A stretch of DNA of 45,893 nucleotides from Caulobacter sp. S45 (GTDB lineage Bacteria; Pseudomonadota; Alphaproteobacteria; Caulobacterales; Caulobacteraceae), in the NCBI RefSeq assembly GCF_903642205.1, contig NZ_CAHJWH010000006.1, forward strand, positions 1 to 45,893, in the 5' to 3' direction. The stretch's first letter is position 1, and every line of letters begins with the position of its first letter. Of this stretch, positions 26,466 to 40,663 are shown in pieces. The position numbers and the translations under genes are program-made. Under the pieces are notes generated by a model. That model worked only from the letters and a program-made list of their open reading frames with translations, ran no database searches and was not told the DNA's origin.

Positions 26466-28667
26466 ATGTCGGCGTCCCCCCGCGATCTCAACCCTGTGGC
26501 CACGACCCCGCTCGCCGCCAGCCCCCTGGCGGCGAGGCTCGGCCGAAAGGCTCTGCTCGGCACGCTGCTGACTGCGGCCTGCGGCGGCGCCTTCGGCCAG
26601 TCCATGGACGCGCCGGCCACCCAACCCGTCCAGCCCCCTGCCCCCATCGTTGCGGCGGTCCCTTATACGACCCTGTCCAGCTCGCTGCAGCCGTCAGACG
26701 CCGCCCTGCTGCGCCAGGCCCTGCTGGCGGCGCGACGGGGTGACGTGACCACCGCTCAGGGACTGCAGGCCCAGATGACCAACGCCACCGCCAAGCGGCT
26801 GGTGACCTGGGCCATGGTCGATTCGGACGGACCGGAACTCGACTACTTCACTCTAGTGAACGCCATGCACGATCTGGAGGGCTGGCCCCGCCCGGCGCGC
26901 CTGCGCGCGGCGCTGGAGAAGGCGCTGGAGACGGCCTCGATCCCGCCCGCTCAGGTCATCTCCATCTTCCAGGGTCGCGATCCCGAGACGGCGCAGGGCG
27001 CCATCGCACTTGTAGCAGCCTACCAAGCGCAGGGCCGCACGGCCGACGCCTCCGCCCTGGTGAAGCACTTCTGGCGCAACCGCGCCTTCGACGCCGAGCT
27101 TCAGGGCCGGATGCTGGCTCGCTTCGGCATCTACCTGACCCAGGACGACCATGCCGCCCGGTTGGAGATGTTGCTCTACAGCGGCGACAGCTCCGCCGCT
27201 CGCCAGCTGATGGAGATGGTCGCGCTGGATCAGCGTGCGCTGGCCCAGGCCCGGATCGCCTTTCACTCGGAGCGGTCGGACGCGCCCATGCTGCTGGGCT
27301 TGGTCCCCGCCAGTCTGCAGAACAACCCCGGGCTGGCCTTCGACCGGGCGCGCTACTACCGCAAGCACAACCTGGAATCCATCGCCGCCGGCCTGGTGCG
27401 GAACTTCCCCACTTCCACGCCTGAGCAGCCCGAAGCCACCAAGGCGATCTGGGCGGAACGCCGCGCCCTGATGTTTTCCGCCCTGCAGAGCCTGGACTAC
27501 CGCGGCGCCTACACAGCGGCGAATGACAACGGCCTGCAGCCCGGCCAGGACGCCAACGAGGCGCAGTTCTTCGCCGGCTGGATCGCGCTCACCAAGCTGA
27601 ACAACGCCGACTTGGCCGACAAGCATTTTGCCCGGCTGCAGTCCGGCGCCACCACGCCGATCACCATGAGCCGCGCCTACTACTGGCGAGGGCGCACCGC
27701 CTTCATCAAGGGCGACGCCATGGACGCCAACCTGTTCTGGGGCGAAGGGGCCAAGTACTACACCGCCTTCTACGGCCAGCTCTCCGCCGCCAAGATTGGC
27801 CAAGCCCGTTTCGAGCTCGGGAGCGACCCCGTCCCCACCGCCGCCGACCAGACCCGCTTCGAGAGCCGAAGCGTCGTCCAGGCAGCGCGGATGCTTGGGG
27901 ACGCCGGCGACCACCAGTTGCTGACCAGCTTCGCCATGGCGGCGGAGGAGGACATCACCAGCCCGGCGGAGCTGGCCCTGCTGGTCGACCTGACCCGCAT
28001 GTATGCCGACCAGTCGCTGTCCATGCGCGTGGTGCGCTCGGGGGCCATGCGGGGGCTGTATCTGCCCCAGCGCGGCTATCCGATCCGCACCGCGCCGCTG
28101 GGTTACGGCTTGGCGGAGCCCGCCTTCGTCTTCGCCATCACCCGCCAGGAATCGAGTTTTGATCCGTTGGCCCGCTCCTATGTCGGCGCGCGAGGCATGA
28201 TGCAGCTAATGCCCGCTACCGCCGCCGCTGTCGCCCGTCGTCAGGGCGTCGAGTATTCAGCATCCCGTCTGGACGATCCCGATTACAACATGAGGCTGGG
28301 CGCCGCCTTCCTGGGCCAGCTCACCACGGATTTCGATGGATCCTACGTACTGGCGACAGCGGCCTACAACGCCGGGCCGGGCCGGCCGCCGCAGTGGATC
28401 GCCTCGTGCGGCGATCCTCGGGGCGGCCATTCCGACCCCGCAGATTTCATCGAGTGCATCCCGTTCTCGGAGACCCGCGACTACGTCATGCGGGTCATGG
28501 AGAACGTGCAGGTCTACCGCGCACGTCTGGCCGGCGGCACGGCGCCGCTCACCATCGCGACGGACTTGAAGCGCGGCGGCTGGGTTCCCTCCGTCACCGC
28601 GCCCGGCGCCTACGCCGCCCCAGCCCAGTACGGCCAAGCCGTCAGCAGGGCGACGGTGGCGCGGTAG
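26466..28667 (+). CDS. Soluble lytic murein transglycosylase
   Basis: Cleaves peptidoglycan between MurNAc and GlcNAc, leaving 1,6-anhydro ends. The protein has 733 residues. The N-terminus has a long basic leader, a hydrophobic core (ALLGTLLTAACGGAFGQS) and then the mature periplasmic part. Residues of about 60-520 are an alpha-helical superhelix of TPR-like repeats, as in Slt70. The catalytic C-terminal domain carries FAITRQESSFDP (Glu562 as acid catalyst), GARGMMQLMPATA and AAYNAGPGR. The ATG at 26466 follows a purine-rich GGAGAG. It is divergent from dapA. Confidence 0.94.
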   Translation: MSASPRDLNPVATTPLAASPLAARLGRKALLGTLLTAACGGAFGQSMDAPATQPVQPPAPIVAAVPYTTLSSSLQPSDAALLRQALLAARRGDVTTAQGLQAQMTNATAKRLVTWAMVDSDGPELDYFTLVNAMHDLEGWPRPARLRAALEKALETASIPPAQVISIFQGRDPETAQGAIALVAAYQAQGRTADASALVKHFWRNRAFDAELQGRMLARFGIYLTQDDHAARLEMLLYSGDSSAARQLMEMVALDQRALAQARIAFHSERSDAPMLLGLVPASLQNNPGLAFDRARYYRKHNLESIAAGLVRNFPTSTPEQPEATKAIWAERRALMFSALQSLDYRGAYTAANDNGLQPGQDANEAQFFAGWIALTKLNNADLADKHFARLQSGATTPITMSRAYYWRGRTAFIKGDAMDANLFWGEGAKYYTAFYGQLSAAKIGQARFELGSDPVPTAADQTRFESRSVVQAARMLGDAGDHQLLTSFAMAAEEDITSPAELALLVDLTRMYADQSLSMRVVRSGAMRGLYLPQRGYPIRTAPLGYGLAEPAFVFAITRQESSFDPLARSYVGARGMMQLMPATAAAVARRQGVEYSASRLDDPDYNMRLGAAFLGQLTTDFDGSYVLATAAYNAGPGRPPQWIASCGDPRGGHSDPADFIECIPFSETRDYVMRVMENVQVYRARLAGGTAPLTIATDLKRGGWVPSVTAPGAYAAPAQYGQAVSRATVAR

Positions 28668-28668
28668 G

Positions 28669-28776
28669 ATCGCTTTCGCGCAACGCCGCGTGGTCTGGCC
28701 CGACGGCAAGACCGGCGGCATGTCGAAGCCGTTGAGCGCCGAAGCCGCACTGCTGCTGCGCGCGACGCCACTTTAG
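28669..28776 (+). pseudogene. Short open relic after the transglycosylase gene
   Basis: A frame without a start codon encodes WPDGKTGGMSKPLSAEAALLL and ends with TAG at 28776. The composition looks like a protein C-terminus rather than random GC-rich DNA. It is wedged between the transglycosylase stop and an IS relic, so it may be the 3' remnant of a deleted gene. I cannot name the family. Confidence 0.3.
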
Positions 28777-28783
28777 GCGGACG

Positions 28784-28879
28784 TCAAGTTTGATGCCGGC
28801 CTCCTTCGACGGCCGCAAGCCGCACCGCGCGCTCGCGCACCTGAGACGGAAACTCGTTCGTCGTCCTGCTTGTGATAGC
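28784..28879 (-). mobile_element. N-terminal remnant of an IS3-type OrfA transposase
   Basis: The minus-strand frame reads TNEFPSQVRERAVRLAAVEGG and ends in TGA at 28784-28786. FxxxVRERAVRL is the hallmark opening of IS3-family OrfA proteins (helix-turn-helix subunit of the transposase). Only about 30 residues remain, with no ATG at the expected place and no OrfB. It is an inactive scar of an insertion. Confidence 0.6.
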
Positions 28880-29026
28880 TTCGTCCTCTCAGGAGTTGAC
28901 GCCTCCGGCACCCGGGACGGGTCACCGCCGACCGCACCGGAGGTGAATTGCGCTTCGGCACGAGGCACAGCGCCAACGCCGCCGCGCTTAGAAGCCGCAG
29001 CCGGGTCTTCGCGTGATCCTGGACAT
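28880..29026 (-). pseudogene. Truncated 5' fragment of an exported-protein gene
   Basis: From an ATG at 29026, the minus strand shows pieces of a signal peptide in two frames: RLRLLSAAALALCLVP in one, then VPRAEAQFTSGAVGGDPSRVPEAS in another, the typical cleavage site and mature start. A frameshift separates them, and the sequence runs into the IS3-type remnant at 28879. This looks like an exported-protein gene cut by an insertion and then decayed. The family is unknown. Confidence 0.35.
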
Positions 29027-29166
29027 GGTCAAATCCCAGTGTGCATTGAGGGCGGATCATGACGCCGGGGCTGACGGTGGGCGTTACCGACGGGACGGCG
29101 CAGCCTCCTGTTGCATGTCGACTCAACTATGAGGCCAACCTAAACCTGCGAAGGTCGGAGTTTGCG

Positions 29167-32100
29167 ATGTCAGGACGGCCATCTCTCGTAAGGCTCGCCG
29201 CCCTCCTACTCGCCTCGGCGGGAGGAGCCGGCGTGGGCCGAGCCGCCGTCAATCCTTTGATGTTCCAGGATCTGCACTGGCGCTCCATCGGGCCGTTCCG
29301 AGGCGGGCGGGTGCTGGCGGTCGCGGGCGCGCCGGATGACGCCAAGCGCTTCTACTTCGGCGCGGTGAACGGCGGGGTCTGGCGCACCGACGACGCCGGC
29401 CGCACCTGGCGCCCCATCTTCGACGCCGAGCCGGTGGGCTCCATCGGCGCCCTGGCCGTCGCGCCCTCCGCGCCGCAGGTGATCTACGTCGGCACGGGCG
29501 AGGCCGACATGCGCTCCGACATCGCCCAGGGCTCAGGGATGTTCAAGTCCATTGACGGCGGCGCCACGTGGGCCTCCATCGGGCTGAAGGACACCCAGCA
29601 GATCGGCAAGATTCTGGTGGATTCCCACAATCCCGACGTGCTGCTGGTCGCGGCGCTCGGCCACCCCTACGGCCCCAACGCCGAGCGCGGCGTGTTCCGC
29701 TCCGCCGACGGCGGCCGCACCTGGACCCGGACCCTGTTCAAGGACGCCGACACCGGGGCCATCGACATGGCCTATCAGCCCGGCGACCCAGACGTGGTCT
29801 ACGCCTCGCTCTGGCGGACGCGGCGGCCGCCCTGGAACGTCTATCCGCCATCGAGCGGCCCAGGCGGCGGCGTCTACAAGTCCGTCGACGGGGGGCGGAG
29901 CTGGACTTCGCTGGCCGGACGCGGTCTGCCGGACAAGCCTGGCCACATCGGCCTCGCCACCACGCCGGCGCGGCCGAACCGCGTCTTCGCCCTGGTCGAC
30001 GCGGTGGAGGACGGCGGGCTCTACCGCTCCGACGATGCGGGGGCGAACTGGACCAAGCTCAGCGGCGACAAGCGCATCTGGCAGCGCGGCTGGTACTTCG
30101 GCGGGATCACCGCGGACCCGAAGAACGCCGATCGGGTCTGGGTCTGCGACACCATCATCCTGCGCTCCGACGACGGCGGCGCCCACTTCCTGCCCATCAA
30201 GGGCGACCCCACGGGCGACGACTTCCACAGCCTGTGGATCGATCCCGCGAACCCCGACCGCCGTATCCTGGGCGTCGATCAGGGGACGCTGGTGACGCTG
30301 AACGGCGGCGTCACCTGGAGCTCCTGGTTCAACCAGCCCACCGGCCAGTTCTACCACGTCGCCACCGACAACCGCTTCCCCTACCGCGTCTATGGCGCCC
30401 AGCAGGACTCCGGCGCCGCGGGCGTTCCGAGCCGCACCGACGGCCAGGACGACGGCGTCAACATGACCCACTTCCGCGAGATCACGGCCGGGGGCGAGAG
30501 CGACGAGATCGCCCCCGACCCGGACGATCCGGACACCGTCTACGGCGGGCGGGTGGACAAGCTCGACCTGCGCTCGGGCCAGAGCCGCAGCATCGACCCG
30601 ACGCTGGCCTTCCCGGACAACTACCGCGGCACCTGGACCCTGCCGCTGGTGTTCGGCCGCCGCGACCACAGCCTCTACTTCGGCAACCAGCGCATCTTCC
30701 GCACCGCCGACGGCGGCCAGCACTGGACGCCCATCAGCCCCGACCTGACCCGCAAGACCCTCGCCGTCCCCGCCACCCTGGACGCACCCACCGCCGCCGA
30801 CACCTCCGAAACCGGTCCCCGGCGGGGCGTGGTCTACGACATCGCCACATCGCCCCTGAAGGATGGCCTGATCTGGGCCGGCACAGACGACGGCCTGGTC
30901 TGGCGCGCCCGCGACGGCGGCGGCCATTGGGACGACGTTACCCCGGCCGCCCTTGCCCCCTGGTCCAAGGTCGGGACCGTGGAGCCGTCGCACTTCGATC
31001 CCCAGGTCGCCTACATCGCGGTGGACCGGCATCGGCTGGACGACCCGGCGCCCTACCTCTACTGCACCCGCGACGGCGGCCGGAGCTGGACGCCGATCAC
31101 CGTCGGGCTCCCGAACGACGGCTCACCGAACTCGGTGAACGTCATCCGGGAGGACACTGCCCGGCGCGGGCTGCTCTATGCGGGGACGGAGCGGGGCGCC
31201 TTCGTTTCCTTCGACGATGGCGCAGACTGGCAGCCGCTGCAGCGGGACCTGCCGCGCACGTCGGTCCGCGACATCACCGTCCACGGTGACGACCTGGTGA
31301 TCGCCACCCACGGGCGCGGCTTCTACATCATGGACGACATGACGCCCTTGCGCGCTCTGGCCGCCGGCGCTGGCGCGCCCGCCGGGATGCGCCTGTTCGC
31401 CCCCGCCCCCGCCGTCCGCCTGCACGAGCCGCCGTTCACCGGCACGCCCATGCCCAAGGACGAGCCCATGGCGCCGAACCCGCCTCCGGGCGCCTACATC
31501 GACTACACGCTGGACCAGCCGGCCTCCACGCCGGTCCAGATCACCATCCAAGACGCGCAAGGCGCGGTGGTGAACCGCTTCAGCAGCAGCGATCCGGCGC
31601 CCCCTCTCGACCTTTCCAAGATCGATGCCGCGCCTGAATGGCTGACCAGGGCGGCCCCGCCGTCCGCCGCCCCCGGCCAGCACCGCTTCGTCTGGGACCT
31701 GCACTACGCCGCGCCCCCGGCGCCAGCCGGGGACGACGCGGAGGCGGAAAGCGCCTCTGGCGTGTGGGCGCCTCCAGGCCTCTATACCGTGGAGCTGACG
31801 GTGGGCGGCCGCAGCCTGCGCCAGCCGCTGGAGGTCCGCCCCGATCCGAGATTGAAGCTCGATCCGGCGGCCTTCCAGGCCGAGTTCGCCCTCGCCCGCC
31901 GCATCGAGCAAGCGCAGGCGCAGGTCCAAGCCACCCTCGCCAAGGCGGCGGCCCTCAAGAAGAGCTTGACGGCGCAGGCCCAGACCGCCGACGCCGCTCG
32001 CAAAGCCGCCCTGGAGCAGGCGGTGGCGCGGGTGGATGCCGTGGCCGACCTGCCGGTGCAGGATCCAGCCAACTCGATGGGCCACCCTCCCGCGTCGCTT

Positions 32101-32259
32101 ACGGGGCTCAGCGACATCTCTGCACGCCTCGTGAAGCTGGAGATCGCCGTGGACGGAGCGGACGGCGCGCCCACCCCCGACGACGTCAGCGGCTTCGACC
32201 AGGCCCAGGCGGCGTTTAAGCTCGCCCAGCAGCAGCTCCACGCGCTGGGCGCGCCATGA
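29167..32259 (+). CDS. Exported Asp-box beta-propeller protein (sortilin/VPS10-like), copy 1
   Basis: A 1030-residue secreted or periplasmic protein. I chose the ATG at 29167 because GGAG lies 6 nt before it and a signal peptide follows (LVRLAALLLASAGGAGVGRAA). Residues from about 30 to 720 contain about eleven Asp-box motifs (S-x-D-x-G-x-T-W), such as TDDAGRTW, SIDGGATW, SADGGRTW and TRDGGRSW, forming one or two beta-propellers as in sortilin-N and BNR proteins. It includes FNQPTGQFYHVATDNRFPYRVYG. A beta-sandwich-like segment follows, then a C-terminal alpha-helical domain rich in Ala/Gln (EQAQAQVQATLAKAAALKKS). The stop overlaps the ATG of a paralogue by 4 nt. Such proteins bind glycans or peptides; the ligand is unknown. 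Confidence 0.9.
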   Translation: MSGRPSLVRLAALLLASAGGAGVGRAAVNPLMFQDLHWRSIGPFRGGRVLAVAGAPDDAKRFYFGAVNGGVWRTDDAGRTWRPIFDAEPVGSIGALAVAPSAPQVIYVGTGEADMRSDIAQGSGMFKSIDGGATWASIGLKDTQQIGKILVDSHNPDVLLVAALGHPYGPNAERGVFRSADGGRTWTRTLFKDADTGAIDMAYQPGDPDVVYASLWRTRRPPWNVYPPSSGPGGGVYKSVDGGRSWTSLAGRGLPDKPGHIGLATTPARPNRVFALVDAVEDGGLYRSDDAGANWTKLSGDKRIWQRGWYFGGITADPKNADRVWVCDTIILRSDDGGAHFLPIKGDPTGDDFHSLWIDPANPDRRILGVDQGTLVTLNGGVTWSSWFNQPTGQFYHVATDNRFPYRVYGAQQDSGAAGVPSRTDGQDDGVNMTHFREITAGGESDEIAPDPDDPDTVYGGRVDKLDLRSGQSRSIDPTLAFPDNYRGTWTLPLVFGRRDHSLYFGNQRIFRTADGGQHWTPISPDLTRKTLAVPATLDAPTAADTSETGPRRGVVYDIATSPLKDGLIWAGTDDGLVWRARDGGGHWDDVTPAALAPWSKVGTVEPSHFDPQVAYIAVDRHRLDDPAPYLYCTRDGGRSWTPITVGLPNDGSPNSVNVIREDTARRGLLYAGTERGAFVSFDDGADWQPLQRDLPRTSVRDITVHGDDLVIATHGRGFYIMDDMTPLRALAAGAGAPAGMRLFAPAPAVRLHEPPFTGTPMPKDEPMAPNPPPGAYIDYTLDQPASTPVQITIQDAQGAVVNRFSSSDPAPPLDLSKIDAAPEWLTRAAPPSAAPGQHRFVWDLHYAAPPAPAGDDAEAESASGVWAPPGLYTVELTVGGRSLRQPLEVRPDPRLKLDPAAFQAEFALARRIEQAQAQVQATLAKAAALKKSLTAQAQTADAARKAALEQAVARVDAVADLPVQDPANSMGHPPASLTGLSDISARLVKLEIAVDGADGAPTPDDVSGFDQAQAAFKLAQQQLHALGAP

Positions 32260-35200
32260 GCGCCTTCAAGCGCGCCGCACCGGCCGCCGTCATCGGCCTG
32301 CTGCTCGGCGCAGCCACCGTCCACGCAACGCCCGATGCTGCGCCCTACGGCGACCTGCACTGGCGCCAGCTCGGCCCCTTCCGCGGCGGCTGGGCCACCA
32401 TGGTGGAGGGTGTGGCCGACCAGCCGGACACCTTCTATCTCGCCGCCGCGGGCGGTGGCCTTTGGCGCACCACGGACGCCGGGCGGACCTGGGGCGCGCT
32501 GTTCGAGCACGGTCCCGCAGCCTCGGTGGGCGCGGTGGCGGTCGCGCCCTCGGACCCGCGGGTGATCTACATCGGCACCGGCCAGCCGGAGCCCCGCTAC
32601 GACGTGGCCGCAGGCCTCGGCGTCTATCGATCCGGCGACGGGGGCGCCACCTGGAGCGACCTCGGGCTGCACGACACCCGCTACATCGGCAAGATCTGGG
32701 TCGATCCGCACGATCCAAACACGCTGCTGGTCGGCGCCCAGGGCCACTTCTTCGGCCCCAGTCAGGACCGCGGCGTCTACCGCTCCACCGACGGGGGCCG
32801 GACCTGGGCGCACGTGCTGAAGCTCGACGACTGGACCGGCGTGGTGGACATCGCCGCCGATCCGGCTGACCCGCGGGTGCTGTTCGCCTCCGCCTGGGAA
32901 GCGCGCCAGTATCCCTGGCAGAGCTATTTCACGCCCGTGTCCGGTCCGGGCAGCGCGATCTACAAGTCGCTGGACGGGGGCGCGAGCTGGACCCGGCTGC
33001 AGGGCGGCGGCTGGCCCGGCGGGACGCTCGGGCGCATCGGCCTGGCCGTCACCCGCACGGCGGCGGGACCGCGGGTCTATGCGGCGGTGGACTCCCCCAA
33101 GTCCGGCGGCCTGTACCGCTCAGACGACGGCGGGGCGCGTTGGAGCCGCGTCAACGACGAGGCCGCCTTCACCAGCTGGTACGCCAGCCGCCTGGCCGTG
33201 GCGCCGGACGATCCGGACACCGTCTACACCGTGGGCCAGTCGATCCGCCGCTGCGACCAGGGCGGCGCGCGCTGCGAGATCATCAAGGGCGCGCCAGGCG
33301 GCGACGACTACCACCACATCTGGATCAACCCGCGCCACCCGGACCACCTCATCACCGGCAGCGACCAGGGTGCTGTGGTCAGCGTGAACGGCGGCCGGAG
33401 CTGGAGCAGTTGGTACAACCAGCCGACGGGCCAGTTCTACCACCTGGCGGCCGACGACCGCTTTCCCTATTGGATCTATTCCGGACAGCAGGACAGCGGC
33501 ACCGTGGGTATCGCCAGCCGGAGCGACTACGGCGCCTTGAGCTTCAGGGACTGGCATCCGGTCGGCGGCGACGAGCGGGACTACGACATCCCCGACCCCG
33601 CCGACCCGCTGATCGTCTACGGCTCAGGCCTGGGCGGGCGGGTCAGCAAGTGGGACGGCCGCACGGGACAGGTGCAGAACATCTCCCCCTGGCCGGTCTC
33701 GAGCTACGGCAAGCGGCCGACGCTCAGCCGCTACCACTACCTGTGGGTCACGCCCCTGGTCGCCTCGCGGACGGGAACGCCTTCGATCTATCTCGGCGCG
33801 CAGGTGCTGTTCCGCTCCACCGACCAGGGGCGGAGCTGGGCCACGATCAGCCTCGATCTCACCGGCAAGATGGCGGGCGCCGCCGGCTGCGACGGCGACG
33901 TGTCGCTCCAGGCCGCCAAGTCCTGCGGCTACGGCGCCATCTCGGCAGTCGAGCCCTCCCCTCGGCACGAAGGCGAAATCTGGGTCGGGGCCGATGACGG
34001 CCTGATCCAGCTGACGCGCGACGGTGGCGCGACGTGGCGCGACGTCACCCCGCCCTTGATGCCACTCTGGGCCAAGGTCGCCACGCTCGACGTCTCCGCT
34101 CTCCAGGACGGCGTCGCCTACGCGGTGGTGGACGACCAGCGGCTGGATGACTTCCAACCCCACGTGCTGCGCACCCGCGATTACGGCCACACTTGGACGC
34201 CGATCACCACCGGCCTGCCGGCGGACCACGTCGCCAGCGTGGTGCGCGCCGACCCGATACGCCCCGGCCTGCTCTACGGCGGGACGGATGCGGGCGTGTA
34301 CGTCTCGTTCGACGACGGCGACCACTGGGGCCCGCTGCAGCAGAACCTGCCGACCGCCTGGGTGCGAGACCTGCTGGTCCACGACGGCGACCTGATCGCC
34401 GCCACCCAGGGCCGAGCCCTCTGGACGCTGGACGACCTCAGCGTCCTGCGCCAGCTCACGCCCGCGATCGAGGCGGCGCCTGCGCACCTGTTCAGCCCCG
34501 CGCCGGCGCTACGCGTGCGCGCCGACGAGAACAAGGACACCCCGCCGCCCCCGGAGACCCCGCTCGGTGAGAACCCGCCGGCAGGCGCGGTGATCGACTA
34601 CTGGCTGGGCTCCGCGCCCAAGATGCCAGTGGTGCTCGAGGTCCGCGACGCCGAAGGCCACAGGGTCGCCCGCTTCGCCAGCGACGACCGGCCCAAACCG
34701 CCGGCCGCAGAGCGTTACTTCGCCATGGGCTGGACCCGACCGCCCGAGCCGCTCCCGGCCACTCCCGGCCTGCACCGCTTCGTCTGGAACCTGCGCTATC
34801 CAAGGCCTGAGGCGATCAAACAGGAGTATTCCATCGCTGCGGTCTGGGGCCGCGACACGCCCGTGGCGCCGCTCGGCCCCTACGTGACGCCCGGCCCGTA
34901 CCAGGTCGTGCTGCGCGCCGACGGCCAGACTTTCTCCGCCACGCTCACCGTACGGGCGGACCCGCGGGTGAGCGTCTCCGCCGCCGACCTGCAGGCGTCG
35001 CTGGCGCTGTCTCAGCGCATCGGCGCCGGTCTGGCGCGGGCGCGCAAGGGCTATGGCGAGACCAGGGCGGTGAAGGCGCGGCTGGATGTGTTGTTCCCGG
35101 CTGCGGCTGTGGCTGCGGCTACGTCCGAGCCGACCTCCGGGCGCACCGCCCGCGACGACCGCGCCGCCCTGCTGCCGGACCAGGTCCGCGCCATCGCCAG

Positions 35201-35501
35201 CGGCCTGCGCCAGCCGCCCGCACCAAATGAACCGGCCTTCGACGACATAGACGGCCGGCTCGCCAGCGTGGAGTCCGACTTGGAAGCCGCCGACGCTGCG
35301 CCCACCTCCGGCCAGACCCAGGTGGTGGACGACGCCCTGGGCCAGCTCGACGCCGCCTGGAGCCGCTGGAGCGCCTTCAAGTCCGGTCCGCTGGCCGCGC
35401 TGAACGTCTCTCTCGTCCGCCAGGGCCGAACGCCCGTGAGCGTGCCGCCCGCAGATAAGCTCAACGTCGAGGCGCCTGATCCGGGGCAGGACCTGCCGTA
35501 G
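32256..35501 (+). CDS. Exported Asp-box beta-propeller protein (sortilin/VPS10-like), copy 2
   Basis: A 1081-residue paralogue of the preceding protein with the same layout: signal peptide (AAPAAVIGLLLGAATVHA), about ten Asp-boxes (TTDAGRTW, SGDGGATW, STDGGRTW, SLDGGASW, STDQGRSW and others), then a beta-sandwich-like segment and a helical C-terminus. Shared blocks such as LHWRxxGPFRGG near the N-terminus and YNQPTGQFYH with FPYWIYSGQQDSG show common origin, yet the two have diverged well beyond a recent duplication. The start overlaps the upstream stop (ATGA), so the pair is made in a coupled way and may work as a heteromer. A TonB-dependent receptor follows 96 bp later. Confidence 0.9.
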   Translation: MSAFKRAAPAAVIGLLLGAATVHATPDAAPYGDLHWRQLGPFRGGWATMVEGVADQPDTFYLAAAGGGLWRTTDAGRTWGALFEHGPAASVGAVAVAPSDPRVIYIGTGQPEPRYDVAAGLGVYRSGDGGATWSDLGLHDTRYIGKIWVDPHDPNTLLVGAQGHFFGPSQDRGVYRSTDGGRTWAHVLKLDDWTGVVDIAADPADPRVLFASAWEARQYPWQSYFTPVSGPGSAIYKSLDGGASWTRLQGGGWPGGTLGRIGLAVTRTAAGPRVYAAVDSPKSGGLYRSDDGGARWSRVNDEAAFTSWYASRLAVAPDDPDTVYTVGQSIRRCDQGGARCEIIKGAPGGDDYHHIWINPRHPDHLITGSDQGAVVSVNGGRSWSSWYNQPTGQFYHLAADDRFPYWIYSGQQDSGTVGIASRSDYGALSFRDWHPVGGDERDYDIPDPADPLIVYGSGLGGRVSKWDGRTGQVQNISPWPVSSYGKRPTLSRYHYLWVTPLVASRTGTPSIYLGAQVLFRSTDQGRSWATISLDLTGKMAGAAGCDGDVSLQAAKSCGYGAISAVEPSPRHEGEIWVGADDGLIQLTRDGGATWRDVTPPLMPLWAKVATLDVSALQDGVAYAVVDDQRLDDFQPHVLRTRDYGHTWTPITTGLPADHVASVVRADPIRPGLLYGGTDAGVYVSFDDGDHWGPLQQNLPTAWVRDLLVHDGDLIAATQGRALWTLDDLSVLRQLTPAIEAAPAHLFSPAPALRVRADENKDTPPPPETPLGENPPAGAVIDYWLGSAPKMPVVLEVRDAEGHRVARFASDDRPKPPAAERYFAMGWTRPPEPLPATPGLHRFVWNLRYPRPEAIKQEYSIAAVWGRDTPVAPLGPYVTPGPYQVVLRADGQTFSATLTVRADPRVSVSAADLQASLALSQRIGAGLARARKGYGETRAVKARLDVLFPAAAVAAATSEPTSGRTARDDRAALLPDQVRAIASGLRQPPAPNEPAFDDIDGRLASVESDLEAADAAPTSGQTQVVDDALGQLDAAWSRWSAFKSGPLAALNVSLVRQGRTPVSVPPADKLNVEAPDPGQDLP

Positions 35502-35597
35502 CAACTTCAACGTGCCGCCGAGGGAAGCGCGACGGCAGGCGGGCGACGGCCTCGCCCATCTGGATCGACGAAATAAGGCTGAGAGGGGAAGACCTGA

Positions 35598-37715
35598 ATG
35601 ACTGTTCGCAAGGTCCACGTGTCGAGTGGATTTCTGGTGTCTTGCCTGCTGGCCCACGGCGTCGCCATGGCCCAGTCATCCGACGGGTCGGGCGAGGCGT
35701 CCCAGGCTCCGGCGACGCGGCTCTCCACCGTGGTGGTCACCGCTACCCGCACCCCCGAACCTGTCGATCAGATCCCCGCTGACATTTCCGTCGTCGATGG
35801 ATCGGAGCTGAGGTTCCGCGACGCCCGGACCCTGGCCTCCGCGCTCAGCCTCGTTCCGGGCGTGGAGGCGCCCGCAGGCGGCGACTCCGGCCCCTCCAGC
35901 GCGGTGCCGTCGTTCTGGGGCCTGCACGAGTTCGACGCCTTCCTGCTGGTGGTCGACGGCGTGCCCTGGGGCGGCGCCTTCAACCCGATGATCACCACGC
36001 TCGACATGAACGATGTCCAGCGCGTCGAGGTGCTGAAGGGCTCGGCGCCGGTGATGTTCGGCGCCACCTCCTTCGTCGGCGTGGTACAGCAGATTCACTA
36101 TCCCGCCGGCGAGGCGGCCGACGAGATCGACCTCGACTACGGCGAATACGACTCGGCGCGGGGGTCGGCGTCGCTGGTCCTGCCCCAGATCGGCGATCTC
36201 AAGCAGTCCCTGGCGATCGACGGCCAGAGCCTGGGTTTCGCCGACAAGCGGGAGGCCGTCGCCAACGGCAAGGCGTTCTACCGCGGCGCGCTTGACCTTG
36301 GCGGCGGCAAGCTGACCCTCGACGCCGACCTCACCTTCGTGCGCGACACGCCCCCGAGCCCGGTCATCCGCTCCGGCGCGGGCCTGACCGGCCTGACGCC
36401 GATCAACGCCAACTTCAACCCCGCCGACGCGCGCATCAACCAGAACGAGTACCACGGTCAGGTCGGCTACGAGCGGCCCACGGCGCTCGGCGACTGGAGC
36501 ACGCTCGTGTCGATCGCTCATTCCGACATCAAGGACGTCCGCGCCTTCCTGCACCCCGAACTTAGCGGCGCCGCGGACAGCCAGGACCAGGACCGCCATA
36601 TCGACGACGACTACGTGGACACCCACCTAACCAATACCTTCGGTCCGAGCGTCCTGACTGTGGGCGCCGACCTGCTCTACGGCCATGGCCAGCAGACGAC
36701 GCGCAACGGCAACAGCGGCTACACCGTGCCCCTAGACGGCTCGGTCCTGCCGCCCGTCACCTCGCAGATCGCCGTCAACGAGATCGGCAACCTCAACGAT
36801 GACCGGGTGTTCGCCGGGCAGTACGCCCAGCTCGACTGGAAGCCGGGCGTCCGGTGGGACGTCACCGCGGGCCTGCGTCTCAACGAGACCTACGAGCACA
36901 AGATCTCCAGCGACTTCAACACCCCGCCGCCTGAACTCGACAGCCAGACCGCGAGCCGCACGGTCGTGCGGCCGACCGAAACCGTCGGCGCCAGCTATCG
37001 CGCCTGGCGCGACGGCCCGGACGAGCTGGTCGCCTATGCCGACTTCCGTAACGCCTTCAAGCCGTCGGCGCTCGACTTCGGGCCGGACTACACCCCGACC
37101 ATCCTGATGCCGGAAACCGCGAAGAGCTACGAGGCCGGGCTGAAGGGCGCGGTGGATGCCGGCCGGCTGACCTACCAAGCCGAACTATTCCAGCTCGATT
37201 TCAGCAACCTGGTGGTGGCGACGCCCTCCGGCGACCTGGCCAACGCCGCCGGCGAGCGCCTGCGCGGCGTGGAGCTTGAGACGCGCTGGGAGGTGGTCCG
37301 GGACCTCTCGCTGGCGGGCAACTTCGCCTACCACGACGCCAAGTTCACCCAGTACCTGTTCGCCGATCCGGACTCGGGCCTGTCGGTCGATGTCGGCGGT
37401 AACCAGCTTCCCCTCTCGCCGCACATCCTCGCCTCCGGCGGGCTGCTCTACACGCCCCCCCGGGGGCTGAACGGCGCGGTGGTGGTCAACTACATCGGCC
37501 GGCGCTACCTCGACGAGGAGAACACAGCCCCCGTCGGCGGCTATGCGACCGTGGCGGCGACGCTGGGCTATCGCTTCGGCCGCTACGGCATCGCCCTGGA
37601 AGGCGAGAACCTGACCAACCGGCGTCCGCCGGTGACATCGAGCGAATTCGGCAGCGAGTCGTTCTACCTGTTAAACGCGCGAACGGCTTGGGTCCGCGTC
37701 ATCTGCAAGCTCTAA
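35598..37715 (+). CDS. TonB-dependent outer-membrane receptor
   Basis: A 705-residue outer-membrane transporter powered by TonB. It has a signal peptide (GFLVSCLLAHGVAMAQS), a TonB-box-like STVVVTATRTPEP, a plug domain with FDAFLLVVDGVPWGG and VQRVEVLKGSAPVMFG, and then a 22-strand barrel. It ends YLLNARTAWVRVICKL, where most relatives end in an aromatic residue. The ATG at 35598 is preceded by GAGAGGGG. It lies 96 bp after the second propeller gene on the same strand, so the propellers and the receptor may capture and import the same substrate. The ligand is unknown; no SusD partner, siderophore or cobalamin gene is present. Confidence 0.92.
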   Translation: MTVRKVHVSSGFLVSCLLAHGVAMAQSSDGSGEASQAPATRLSTVVVTATRTPEPVDQIPADISVVDGSELRFRDARTLASALSLVPGVEAPAGGDSGPSSAVPSFWGLHEFDAFLLVVDGVPWGGAFNPMITTLDMNDVQRVEVLKGSAPVMFGATSFVGVVQQIHYPAGEAADEIDLDYGEYDSARGSASLVLPQIGDLKQSLAIDGQSLGFADKREAVANGKAFYRGALDLGGGKLTLDADLTFVRDTPPSPVIRSGAGLTGLTPINANFNPADARINQNEYHGQVGYERPTALGDWSTLVSIAHSDIKDVRAFLHPELSGAADSQDQDRHIDDDYVDTHLTNTFGPSVLTVGADLLYGHGQQTTRNGNSGYTVPLDGSVLPPVTSQIAVNEIGNLNDDRVFAGQYAQLDWKPGVRWDVTAGLRLNETYEHKISSDFNTPPPELDSQTASRTVVRPTETVGASYRAWRDGPDELVAYADFRNAFKPSALDFGPDYTPTILMPETAKSYEAGLKGAVDAGRLTYQAELFQLDFSNLVVATPSGDLANAAGERLRGVELETRWEVVRDLSLAGNFAYHDAKFTQYLFADPDSGLSVDVGGNQLPLSPHILASGGLLYTPPRGLNGAVVVNYIGRRYLDEENTAPVGGYATVAATLGYRFGRYGIALEGENLTNRRPPVTSSEFGSESFYLLNARTAWVRVICKL

Positions 37716-37937
37716 CCGGGGGTTAAACCGGTGCGAAAGATCATAGGACTCCCCCCCGTGCGGCGCGGTGCCCGTCATTCCGTTGCGGTCGTCCGCGTTG
37801 ACGCTGGTCGGATCGCACAGCGCGAGCGGCATGTGTTCGAGCGGTCCCGCCATGTTGGTCGGTCGCCAGAAATCGATCCACACCAACCCCGCGACGTCGT
37901 CGCGCTCGTAGCGCGTGCCATCGTCGAGCGGCCTTCT
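37716..37937 (-). pseudogene. Gene relic, CmcJ/NvfI-like oxygenase C-terminal region
   Basis: The minus-strand frame contains YERDDVAGLVWIDFWRP, then MAGPLEHMPLALCDPTSV and GGESYDLSHRFNP. The order W/F-WRP, then PLALCD, then GE-Y-L-x-NP, is the pattern I associate with the C-terminal half of CmcJ/NvfI-type oxidoreductases. No matching N-terminal half or start codon is present upstream; that sequence reads as shadow. The relic directly abuts the TonB receptor stop, in convergent orientation. It is probably a remnant of a deleted gene. The family name is a judgement from memory. Confidence 0.45.
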
Positions 37938-37986
37938 TCCGTTCTGAGCCGAATTCGGAGATCGGGATGAACGTTGTTCCTGCGAT

Positions 37987-38742
37987 CTACAGTCGAAGGC
38001 TTGGGTGCGAAGTCGTGGCTGCAAGCGCTTCGCGTCGGGCCTGCCCCAGCCGCCGCTGGCGTCGGCTGTACCAGAAGGTCCAGAGCCCGAGCGCGCCCAT
38101 GGTGGCGTTGCCCATGATCGGCCCAACGACCAGGTACTCGCGAACGCTGATCGTATAGACCAAGGTGCAGGAGAGCGCCGCCTCGCCCACCAGGCCGAAG
38201 CCCCACACCAGGGTCATCAGCGTCATGGATCGGCGGAAGAACGCGTTGTCGCGGAGCCCCTCGAAAGCGGCCAGTTCCGATGACCTGCTCCGCATCATGC
38301 GAGCGCGGGCGAGCTGATAGACCAGCGGTCGTCCGATGGCCGCCGAGCCGAGGAAGACCATGCCGATCAGCACCGTGACGAGCTTCTCGCGCAGTTGCAG
38401 CAGATGCACCGAACCGCCGCCGAAGACGGCCAGCACCGACAGCACGATGCCGCCGAGAACCAGCATTGACAGGGCGTCGACCCTGCGGCGACGGGCGAAC
38501 TCCACAAGGCTCCAGACGACCGGCGGTCCCGAGGAGGCGATCAGCGCATTGACGTCGCCCAGTGTGGGCTTGGCCTGGTCATAGATGACATAGGGCAGGA
38601 CGAAGTTGACCAGGACTTCGGTCCCAAGCTTGACCCCGTTCTTGCGCATATAGCCAAGGACCTGATCCAGCGGTTTGCCGAGGGCGGCAGCCTCGCTCTG
38701 TTCGTTCAGGCGCGCGCCCTGCTCCACCACCAAGTCCGTCAT
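37987..38742 (-). CDS. VC0807-like integral membrane protein
   Basis: A 251-residue inner-membrane protein with about six hydrophobic segments (LVNFVLPYVIYDQA, DALSMLVLGGIVLSVLAVFGGG, LVTVLIGMVFLGSAAIG, MTLMTLVWGFGLVGEAALS and YLVVGPIMGNATMGALGLWTFWY). The motif FLxSxxIGRPLxY and the general plan match the VC0807 family of unknown function. The ATG at 38742 follows a purine-rich stretch. The gene lies downstream of a two-component pair on the same strand. Its upstream region carries the inverted repeat GGTGAC-N4-GTCACC (38820-38835), which recurs before the kinase gene. It is therefore the best candidate target of that system. Confidence 0.85.
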   Translation of the reverse strand: MTDLVVEQGARLNEQSEAAALGKPLDQVLGYMRKNGVKLGTEVLVNFVLPYVIYDQAKPTLGDVNALIASSGPPVVWSLVEFARRRRVDALSMLVLGGIVLSVLAVFGGGSVHLLQLREKLVTVLIGMVFLGSAAIGRPLVYQLARARMMRSRSSELAAFEGLRDNAFFRRSMTLMTLVWGFGLVGEAALSCTLVYTISVREYLVVGPIMGNATMGALGLWTFWYSRRQRRLGQARREALAATTSHPSLRL

Positions 38743-38819
38743 GATCGTCTCCTTCTCTCGATGACAGGAGCTTGAGCGCGATCAGAGCTGGCCGTCAGTG
38801 TCCGCCGTCATCTCCAAAA

Positions 38820-38835
38820 GGTGACGAAAGTCACC
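38820..38835. promoter_or_regulatory. Inverted repeat before the VC0807-like gene (operator site A)
   Basis: GGTGAC-GAAA-GTCACC has perfect 6-bp arms around a 4-bp centre, about 78 bp upstream of the membrane protein start and just after the response-regulator stop. The same GTGAC-N4-GTCAC design occurs at 40664-40677. LuxR/NarL-type regulators bind such repeats. Confidence 0.6.
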
Positions 38836-38861
38836 GGCCTCGTTGGGCTCGTGTGGAGCGA

Positions 38862-39467
38862 TCAGAGCCAGCCGTTGGAGCGGGCAATGCGGCCTGCCTC
38901 GATCCTGTTGGCCGCCCCCAGCTTCTGGGCGGCTTCGGAGAGGTAGTTGCGGACGGTGCCCACCGACAGGCCGAGCGCTAAGGCGATTGCGCGGTTGGAG
39001 CGGCCCTCCTCCGCCAGCCTCAGGATCGCCCGCTCGCGCTCGCTCAGCGGGTCGGCCGGGGTGTCCCAGACAGCTTCCGCCAGGTGGGGCGAGATGGCCT
39101 TGCCGCCGGCGACGACCGTGCGCACGGCAGCGGCCAGCTCGGCGCTGGGCGCATCCTTCAGTAGATATCCGCGCACGCCTGCGTCCAGCGCGCGGCGAAG
39201 ATAGCCCGCCCGTCCGAAAGTGGTGACGATCAGGACTCGTGTGGGTGAGCGCTGCGCCTGCAGCCGCGCTGCGACCTCAATGCCGCTCAGCTCAGGCATC
39301 TCGACGTCCGAGACCAGGATGTCGGGCTGCAGGGCCAGGACGAGCTCCAGCGCCCGCTGGCCATCTGGCGCGCGGCCGACCACGTCCAGATCGTCCTCCA
39401 GGTCCAGCAGCGCGGCAAGCGCACCGAGCACCAGGGCTTGGTCTTCGGCAATGACGACGCGGATCAT
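38862..39467 (-). CDS. DesR-type response regulator (LuxR/NarL family)
   Basis: A 201-residue regulator. The receiver domain has the acidic pair in IAEDQ, the phosphoacceptor Asp54 in LVSDVEMPE and the conserved Lys in GYLLKDAPSAE. The C-terminal LuxR-type helix-turn-helix is LSERERAILRLAEEGRSNRAIALALGLSVGTVRNYL. Length and layout match DesR-like regulators. Its ATG overlaps the stop of the sensor kinase gene by 4 nt, so the two are co-translated. Likely targets are its own operon and the downstream VC0807-like gene, both of which carry the same inverted repeat upstream. Confidence 0.93.
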   Translation of the reverse strand: MIRVVIAEDQALVLGALAALLDLEDDLDVVGRAPDGQRALELVLALQPDILVSDVEMPELSGIEVAARLQAQRSPTRVLIVTTFGRAGYLRRALDAGVRGYLLKDAPSAELAAAVRTVVAGGKAISPHLAEAVWDTPADPLSERERAILRLAEEGRSNRAIALALGLSVGTVRNYLSEAAQKLGAANRIEAGRIARSNGWL

Positions 39468-40663
39468 GCCCGCCGGCCTGCGCCTGCCGGCAGGCTCGCG
39501 GTCAGCTGGAGGCCCTCGCGGCCGCTCTCCACCCTGAGACTGCCGCCTGCGGCCTCCAGGCGGATCCTCATGCCAGACAGCCCGAATCCCTCCGCCACCG
39601 CGCCGCCGCGTCCATCATCGGTGACACTCAGCTTCATCTCTCCGTCCGGCGTGGACTCCACGCCGATCGTGCAGACCCTGGCATGGGCATGGCGGATCAC
39701 ATTGGTCACGGCCTCCCGCAAGGCCATGGTGATGACGGCCTCCCGCTGCGGATCGCCGTCCACGACCTGGTTGCGCACCTGCACCTGCACCTGCACGCCC
39801 GCGGCAGACAGGGCGCGCTGCGCCCGCTCGACCTCGGCGGCGAGGCTCGCGCCCTTCATGCCGACCACGGCGGTACGCACCTCGACCAAGGCGTCTCGGG
39901 CGATGGCGGCGAGCTCCTGCATCTCGCGTCGCGCCGCGTCCAGGTCACGGTCGCAAAGCCGCTGGGCGAGGTCGGCCTTGACGGCGACCAAGGTCAGGGT
40001 ATGGCCGAGCAGATCGTGTAAATCCCGGGCGATCCGTTCCCGCTCGGCCGCAGTGGCCAGGGCGCGCACCTCGCCCTGCGCCTGCTCGAGCTGGCGGTTC
40101 TTCTCCTCCAGCTCGCTCTGCCAGAGCACGCCGAAGCCGATCAGAGCACCGAAGAAGATGCCCGATACCCAGGCCGGCCAGGGCTGATGGGTCGCCAGCC
40201 CGAACGCCGCGAGCGCCAGTTGCAGGCCGACCAGCATCACGGTCGCGCGACGCCTGGGCCTCATCCTGGCGGCGAACGAGGCGCCGTAGACGTTGAAAAC
40301 GCTCCAGGCGCCGCCGAAGGGACTGAGCGCAAAGCCAACGCCTGCTGACGCCAGGGCGTGAAGCATCGGCGAGCGTCGCGTCCGTAGCCCGTCGGCGTAG
40401 ATGGCTAGAAATATCGTCGTGCCGACGAGCCCGGCGGCTAGCTCTGGTGGGCGGGGCGGCCGGAACAGCCATGGCGTGAAATAGAGGGCGAGGTAAGCCA
40501 GCCAGACCAGCCGACCGGCCAGCTTGGGCGGCGACGGACGTCGCTCCGGGGGAGCGACCTTCCTCAAGTTCGCAGGGTCTCTCCCCACCAGCTTCAATAC
40601 GCGTGCCGCACACCGGCCTCCTCCGCTGCTGCGCAAGGATGGCTGTTCCAGCTGATCCGACAA
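39464..40663 (-). CDS. DesK-type sensor histidine kinase
   Basis: A membrane sensor kinase of up to 399 residues from the TTG at 40663. The start is uncertain: conserved sequence begins near PPKLAGRLVWLAYLALYF (about residue 46), and an inverted repeat at 40664-40677 abuts the TTG, so a later GTG or TTG may be used. About five or six membrane helices precede a coiled coil (SELEEKNRQLEQAQGEVRAL). The DHp box is ERERIARDLHDLLGHTL, with the phosphorylated His216. The ATPase domain has REAVTNVIRHAHA and a DDGRGG box. DesK relatives sense membrane or envelope state. The signal here is unknown. Confidence 0.92.
   Translation of the reverse strand: MSDQLEQPSLRSSGGGRCAARVLKLVGRDPANLRKVAPPERRPSPPKLAGRLVWLAYLALYFTPWLFRPPRPPELAAGLVGTTIFLAIYADGLRTRRSPMLHALASAGVGFALSPFGGAWSVFNVYGASFAARMRPRRRATVMLVGLQLALAAFGLATHQPWPAWVSGIFFGALIGFGVLWQSELEEKNRQLEQAQGEVRALATAAERERIARDLHDLLGHTLTLVAVKADLAQRLCDRDLDAARREMQELAAIARDALVEVRTAVVGMKGASLAAEVERAQRALSAAGVQVQVQVRNQVVDGDPQREAVITMALREAVTNVIRHAHARVCTIGVESTPDGEMKLSVTDDGRGGAVAEGFGLSGMRIRLEAAGGSLRVESGREGLQLTASLPAGAGRRA

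Follow-up and report, generated by a model that had tools for sequence, protein, structure and literature searches.

The window analysed here, a stretch of 45,893 nucleotides from Caulobacter sp. S45 (contig NZ_CAHJWH010000006.1 of a draft genome of 265 contigs), carries two overlapping genes for exported beta-propeller proteins, A and B, followed on the same strand by a gene for a TonB-dependent receptor, T1. Tentatively, and with a little less than an even chance of being right, we read A and B as exported, soluble double-propeller partners for TonB-dependent uptake, that is, as an anchor-free proteobacterial counterpart of BtuG and XusB. A first-pass annotation of the window had described the pair as a sortilin-like binder that feeds the receptor. 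The observation behind that description is confirmed and its interpretation is partly supported.

A (29167..32259, + strand, 1030 residues; an alternative in-frame ATG at 29059 would give 1066) and its paralogue B (32256..35501, + strand, 1081 residues) overlap by 4 bases, ATGA, which contain both the stop codon of A and the start codon of B. A gap of 96 bp (35502..35597, + strand), in which a purine-rich, ribosome-binding-like stretch is seen by eye 5′ of the ATG, separates B from T1 (35598..37715, + strand, 705 residues). Positions of the open reading frames (ORFs), overlap, gap, strand and sizes above 1000 residues are all as first annotated. Simple consensus scans of 28500-38900 returned 0 sigma-70-like promoters and 0 terminator-like sites on the + strand, a result that neither shows nor excludes a single transcript. 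Over 1043 aligned columns, A and B share 43% identity. The same genome has a third paralogue, C, on contig C86 (49% identity to A), and no fourth was found at E ≤ 1e-3.

Using the pattern [STA]x[DN]xGxx[WFH], we count 11 Asp-boxes in A and 10 in B, as had been reported, compared to means of 0.24 and 0.20 (maximum 3 and 2, respectively) in 1000 composition shuffles. Both proteins match Pfam Sortilin-Vps10 (PF15902) with 82.8 bits for A and 69.5 bits for B over a cut-off of 33, and their best NCBIfam match is a family named glycosylhydrolase (137.2 and 137.9 bits, below the cut-off of 175). A signal-peptide-like stretch is visible by eye at both N-termini. The only cysteines are at 327 and 633 in A and at 333, 340, 545 and 557 in B. 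Since none of these is a lipid-anchor Cys, A and B are probably soluble exported proteins. A lipobox-like string is present in 12 of 99 relatives checked; the six of these that were read by eye all resemble ordinary signal peptides.

The fold of A was assessed from an AlphaFold2 model based on 64 aligned sequences (mean predicted local distance difference test, pLDDT, 91.7; predicted template-modelling score, pTM, 0.91). When the model is compared to the PDB with Foldseek, ranks 1-24 are all glycoside hydrolase family 74 (GH74) enzymes (best E 1.8e-24), and the first sortilin entry comes at rank 36 (E 2.0e-12; TMq 0.17 compared to 0.43 for the best GH74). VIA-align superposes residues 35-730 of A on a GH74 enzyme over 608 residues (root-mean-square deviation, rmsd, 5.2 Å; Z 30.4). 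Single seven-bladed propellers also reach Z 27-28, over about 280 residues, and it is therefore the aligned length rather than Z that argues for GH74. We predict that residues 27-727 of A adopt the tandem seven-bladed propeller fold of GH74 xyloglucanases, followed by a beta-sandwich and helices. At the level of sequence, phmmer found no match for A among PDB sequences at E ≤ 0.01; a profile of 64 relatives matched GH74 and a BNR protein. A viral library gave general propeller and fibre matches only.

PMC2716378 gives 7+7 blades for GH74 and a ten-bladed propeller for the Vps10 domain of sortilin. The term sortilin-like accordingly holds in part: A and B share Asp-boxes and the PF15902 label with sortilin/Vps10 receptors, whereas the predicted fold of A is GH74-like. 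As the predicted structure matches GH74 far better, a sortilin-type receptor was set aside as the fold of A.

The C-terminal helical domain that had been annotated is borne out for A by four helices in the model (900-939, 943-960, 981-996 and 1004-1028). Modelled alone (pLDDT 89.5), the C-terminal part, sandwich and helices, has no Foldseek match below E 0.001, and its sandwich resembles many immunoglobulin-like domains. VIA-align matches cover the sandwich (model residues 9-169) and none of them the helices; among many sandwiches they include PorU (Z 10.1, 94 residues, rmsd 2.5) and PorZ (Z 8.1, 89 residues, rmsd 3.2). PorZ and BT4663-type proteins are double propellers with a beta-sandwich, and A has the same order of propellers then sandwich. 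Unlike for those proteins, no type IX secretion or sensor-kinase context was seen here, and no sequence relation is shown.

In the GH74 fold, the cleft between the two propellers holds the glycan. We take the first-propeller Asp that differs between two PDB entries (D in 2cn2, A in 2cn3) to be a GH74 catalytic residue, with which the mutant titles of the entries agree. The aligned column (P0001 V67) contains Val in 36, Asn in 13, Ala in 11 and Thr in 4 sequences, hence Asp in 0 of the 64 aligned relatives; the column beside it has Asp in 17 of the 64. With this residue missing, ligand binding by A and B would be likelier than GH74-type cleavage.

The identification of T1 as a TonB-dependent receptor rests on Plug (PF07715, 62.0 bits) and beta-barrel (PF00593, TonB_dep_Rec_b-barrel, 129.2 bits) domains, both above the Pfam cut-offs. 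A putative TonB box, VVVTA, is recognised by pattern near the N-terminus of T1 and in its relatives from genomes G165 and G183. T1 scores 123.6 bits against the siderophore receptor model TIGR01783 (below the cut-off of 223.5) and 31.9 bits against the SusC/RagA model TIGR04056 (cut-off 368.25). A second receptor found at propeller loci, T2, is nearest to siderophore-receptor and FecA models, and T1 and T2 do not match each other by BLAST at E ≤ 1e-8. By their profile scores, both are classed as siderophore-type rather than SusC-type.

Both receptors are associated with the propellers. For T1, we searched 199 sampled Caulobacteraceae genomes, where B has matches in 27 at E ≤ 1e-3 and in 22 at E ≤ 1e-40 (three candidates scored per genome). 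T1 is present at E ≤ 1e-40 in 15 genomes, all among the 22 with a clear propeller (B-type match, E ≤ 1e-40); with five candidates scored for each genome, it was found in none of the remaining 177. Across 398 genomes of the order, T1 was recovered only from the window's own genome, with two candidates scored per genome, so that absence says little there. The neighbourhood also recurs. For example, the order in G165, which belongs to another genus, is A, 31 bp, T1, 67 bp, C. In G169, from the window's genus, the tail of an A gene runs into the last 64 residues of T1 and the joined stretch has a stop inside (L167 1-750, G169:C327), which by sequence we take to be a deletion relic of an A...T1 neighbourhood.

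T2 stands at propeller loci of three Dyella species, Rhodanobacter, three metagenome-assembled genomes (MAGs) and G169, at distances of 0-1829 bp; in L238 a single gene separates it from A. In Dyella, A is divergent from a T2-B pair; in G169, T2 lies beside an intact A with 82% identity to that of the window. When the 1809 ORFs located up to 6 kb from propellers were clustered with no hypothesis in mind, T2 occurred at more loci (8) than any other family. The next clusters have 7 loci each and comprise a dispersed dehydrogenase family, a LolA-like gene and panB, the last from one genus (dehydrogenase and panB named by eye).

T2 was found in 14 of 41 propeller-bearing genomes, and at a propeller locus in 8; in the other 6 no propeller was seen beside T2, three of these being contigs shorter than 6 kb. 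Because the 41 genomes had been chosen for their propellers, we searched 78 Rhodanobacteraceae genomes for each protein separately. T2 occurs in 27, propellers in 33 and both in 25 (Fisher's exact test, 2e-11; the genomes are related, and descent is uncorrected). Nine of the 27 T2 copies lie 77-252 bp from a propeller, and these nine are among the 10 copies with at least 67% identity to the T2 of Dyella.

The proposed link between propellers and a TonB receptor thus extends to two dissimilar receptor families, each co-occurring strongly with propellers in counts not corrected for descent. The neighbourhoods are tight and repeated, and among the genomes sampled both receptors are nearly confined to those with propellers; this suggests that A and B take part in the uptake process that the receptor serves. 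A and B would act together and bind the receptor's ligand, possibly a scarce small one such as a metal chelate or a short oligomer, and the receptor would then take the bound ligand across the outer membrane. The propellers could serve either as periplasmic acceptors or as secreted capture proteins.

Propeller-assisted TonB uptake is already known from Bacteroides lipoproteins. In the BtuG-BtuB (vitamin B12) and XusB-XusA (xenosiderophores) systems, the propeller gene adjoins that of a small-molecule-type TonB-dependent transporter, as described in PMC10404256 and PMC13142918. The loci described here are alike in that a propeller gene stands by a TonB receptor gene (the distance is 96 bp here and 31 and 67 bp in G165; in Dyella the receptor is T2). 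Nevertheless, BtuG and XusB are single seven-bladed surface lipoproteins, while A and B come from Proteobacteria and are unanchored, paired and about twice the propeller size, with an added sandwich and helices as modelled in A. Because of the differences in size, propeller number, pairing and anchor, we do not file A and B as BtuG or XusB members. Within the literature library searched, no paper was found that joins sortilin/VPS10 or BNR-like repeats with a TonB-dependent receptor. If the uptake reading is right, propeller-assisted uptake would extend to soil Proteobacteria, where the proteins are built differently. It would also give a function to a large family (at least 583 stretches) that Pfam labels sortilin and NCBIfam places nearest a glycosylhydrolase, and would open the ligands of two orphan receptor families to testing.

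At least 583 relative-encoding stretches were found in a scan of named genomes; the best 80 of them, which we analysed, come from Caulobacter, Dyella, Rhodanobacter, Acidobacteria, Bacteroidota and others. In a FastTree phylogeny, 145 propellers resolve into orthogroups A, B, C and D, and the window's A and B fall in orthogroups A and B. As these two orthogroups each have Caulobacteraceae and Rhodanobacteraceae members, either the split between A and B predates both sets or genes have been exchanged. Outside the window, A and B stand side by side in divergent orientation in G193, lie on either side of T2 in Dyella and have a single gene between them in an Acetobacteraceae MAG; none of the other Caulobacteraceae loci that we retrieved showed both. 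Of the propeller loci examined, the window alone has the order A-B-T1, and the idea of a conserved three-gene operon was therefore set aside.

Several points count against a role in uptake. A receptor was detected at 10 of the best 80 of the at least 583 loci and in the flanks of none of the other 70, using a model of our own whose training set was mainly Caulobacter receptors and which may overlook more distant receptors. T1 has other neighbours and no adjacent propeller in 13 of its 15 genomes, although in at least four of the 13 (G166, G198, G218 and G238) it lies at or near a contig end. In five genomes (G184, G199, G203, G211 and G233), the sole match to TIGR01256 (modA) is located about 14-130 bp upstream of T1. 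None of the 17 more distant T2 copies adjoins a propeller. The missing lipid-anchor Cys sets A and B apart from the known propeller partners, and the co-occurrence counts of T1 and T2 alike are uncorrected for descent. Finally, propellers occur with no evident receptor linkage in Acidobacteria, Bacteroidota and others and in the 31 of 150 genomes of the order that have a propeller match: the family does not depend on such linkage.

The 70 loci with no receptor detected, the other neighbours of T1 in 13 genomes and the propellers that lack evident linkage speak for a loose association, in which the propellers are widespread stand-alone envelope or secreted proteins, and common ancestry and gene transfer between soil bacteria, rather than a single device, account for receptor neighbours and co-occurrence. 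We regard this as unlikely, if the best placed of the alternatives. It does not readily account for the same linkage in two dissimilar receptor families, for its presence in both Caulobacteraceae and Rhodanobacteraceae, or for the 9 of 10 T2 copies closest to that of Dyella that lie within 252 bp of a propeller.

A more specific proposal makes the locus a SusD-free proteobacterial device, in which a heteromer of two paralogous GH74-fold double propellers that have lost GH74 catalysis would form a capture or acceptor module for interchangeable, dissimilar siderophore-type receptors, T1 perhaps being for molybdenum or tungsten species. We consider it rather improbable in this form. The locus does resemble SusCD systems in that an exported putative binding protein is encoded beside a TonB-dependent transporter. 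However, the receptor is not SusC-type, and no SusD domain was found among 13 window proteins scanned with Pfam. Describing the locus as a Sus analogue without SusD, as first proposed, is a poor fit because T1 favours the siderophore model over the SusC model by the scores given above and because its relatives can adjoin modA.

The modA-T1 pairs are found at L157 1975-5290, L158 3424-6380, L160 3170-6174, L161 6986-10189 and L162 8545-11552; a cytochrome b561 cluster gene is nearby in four of the five, and L161 also has a molybdopterin oxidoreductase gene. Such pairs may offer complexes of molybdate or tungstate a way across the outer membrane. The five modA-linked T1s belong to a T1 subclade other than the window's, and in the window's genome (G000) modA is on another contig, beside modB- and modC-like genes. 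Molybdenum is for these reasons no more than a lead for T1, and so is molybdate as the ligand of the window's T1. Searching the window and seven related loci against Rfam gave no family at cut-off, and hence no riboswitch hint of a ligand.

Also unlikely, and more so than a loose association, is an enzyme-plus-importer arrangement, in which A and B would be GH74-fold hydrolases that use different catalytic residues to trim a glycan or conjugate, the receptor importing the product as at the Xanthomonas xyloglucan locus. The predicted GH74 fold of A and the glycosylhydrolase name of the best NCBIfam match point this way, and loci that combine GH74 with TonB transporters are already known (PMC8245568). 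Nonetheless, compared to the Xanthomonas GH74, A and B are without one catalytic Asp (none of the 64 aligned relatives has it, even if 17 have Asp in the next column) and carry an extra C-terminal half; the NCBIfam scores are below cut-off; the receptor is siderophore-type; and 0 glycoside hydrolases were detected among the 10 other window genes scanned with Pfam.

A role in envelope assembly or secretion, as for PorZ-like surface double propellers with a sandwich and with the receptor as a bystander, is very unlikely: a LolA-like gene lies 0-82 bp from propellers at seven loci and is apparently fused to them in two more, and the sandwich matches PorU and PorZ, but this gene is mostly found with D-type propellers rather than A or B, Z near 8 is commonplace among sandwiches, and the repeated receptor neighbours would be left unexplained.

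A gene for a LolA-like exported protein adjoins D-type propellers at L037 11219-12196, L108 3460-4248, L137 10717-11556, L138 444-1430 and L240 3310-4320, and apparent fusions of the two are found at L123 11052-15056 and L131 3943-7920. The single copy that matches PF17131 does so with 21.3 bits, below the cut-off of 30. Similar genes are also present at L205 and L210.

Other neighbours were recorded at individual loci. In genus g3, an LprI-like gene (L035 7276-8349 and L112 10854-11930; the domain was checked in the L035 copy) has a 4-base overlap with the stop of B and holds the place after B that T1 has in the window. An SMP-30/strictosidine-synthase-like gene adjoins T2 at L240 6502-7440 (Pfam) and at L228 1704-2720 (by eye). 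The C locus of the window's genome (L034 3412-11474, G000:C86) has a different receptor on the same strand as C, with a glycerophosphodiesterase gene between them on the other strand. Downstream of T1, the window itself encodes a LuxR-type response regulator and a histidine kinase on the − strand (38862-40663).

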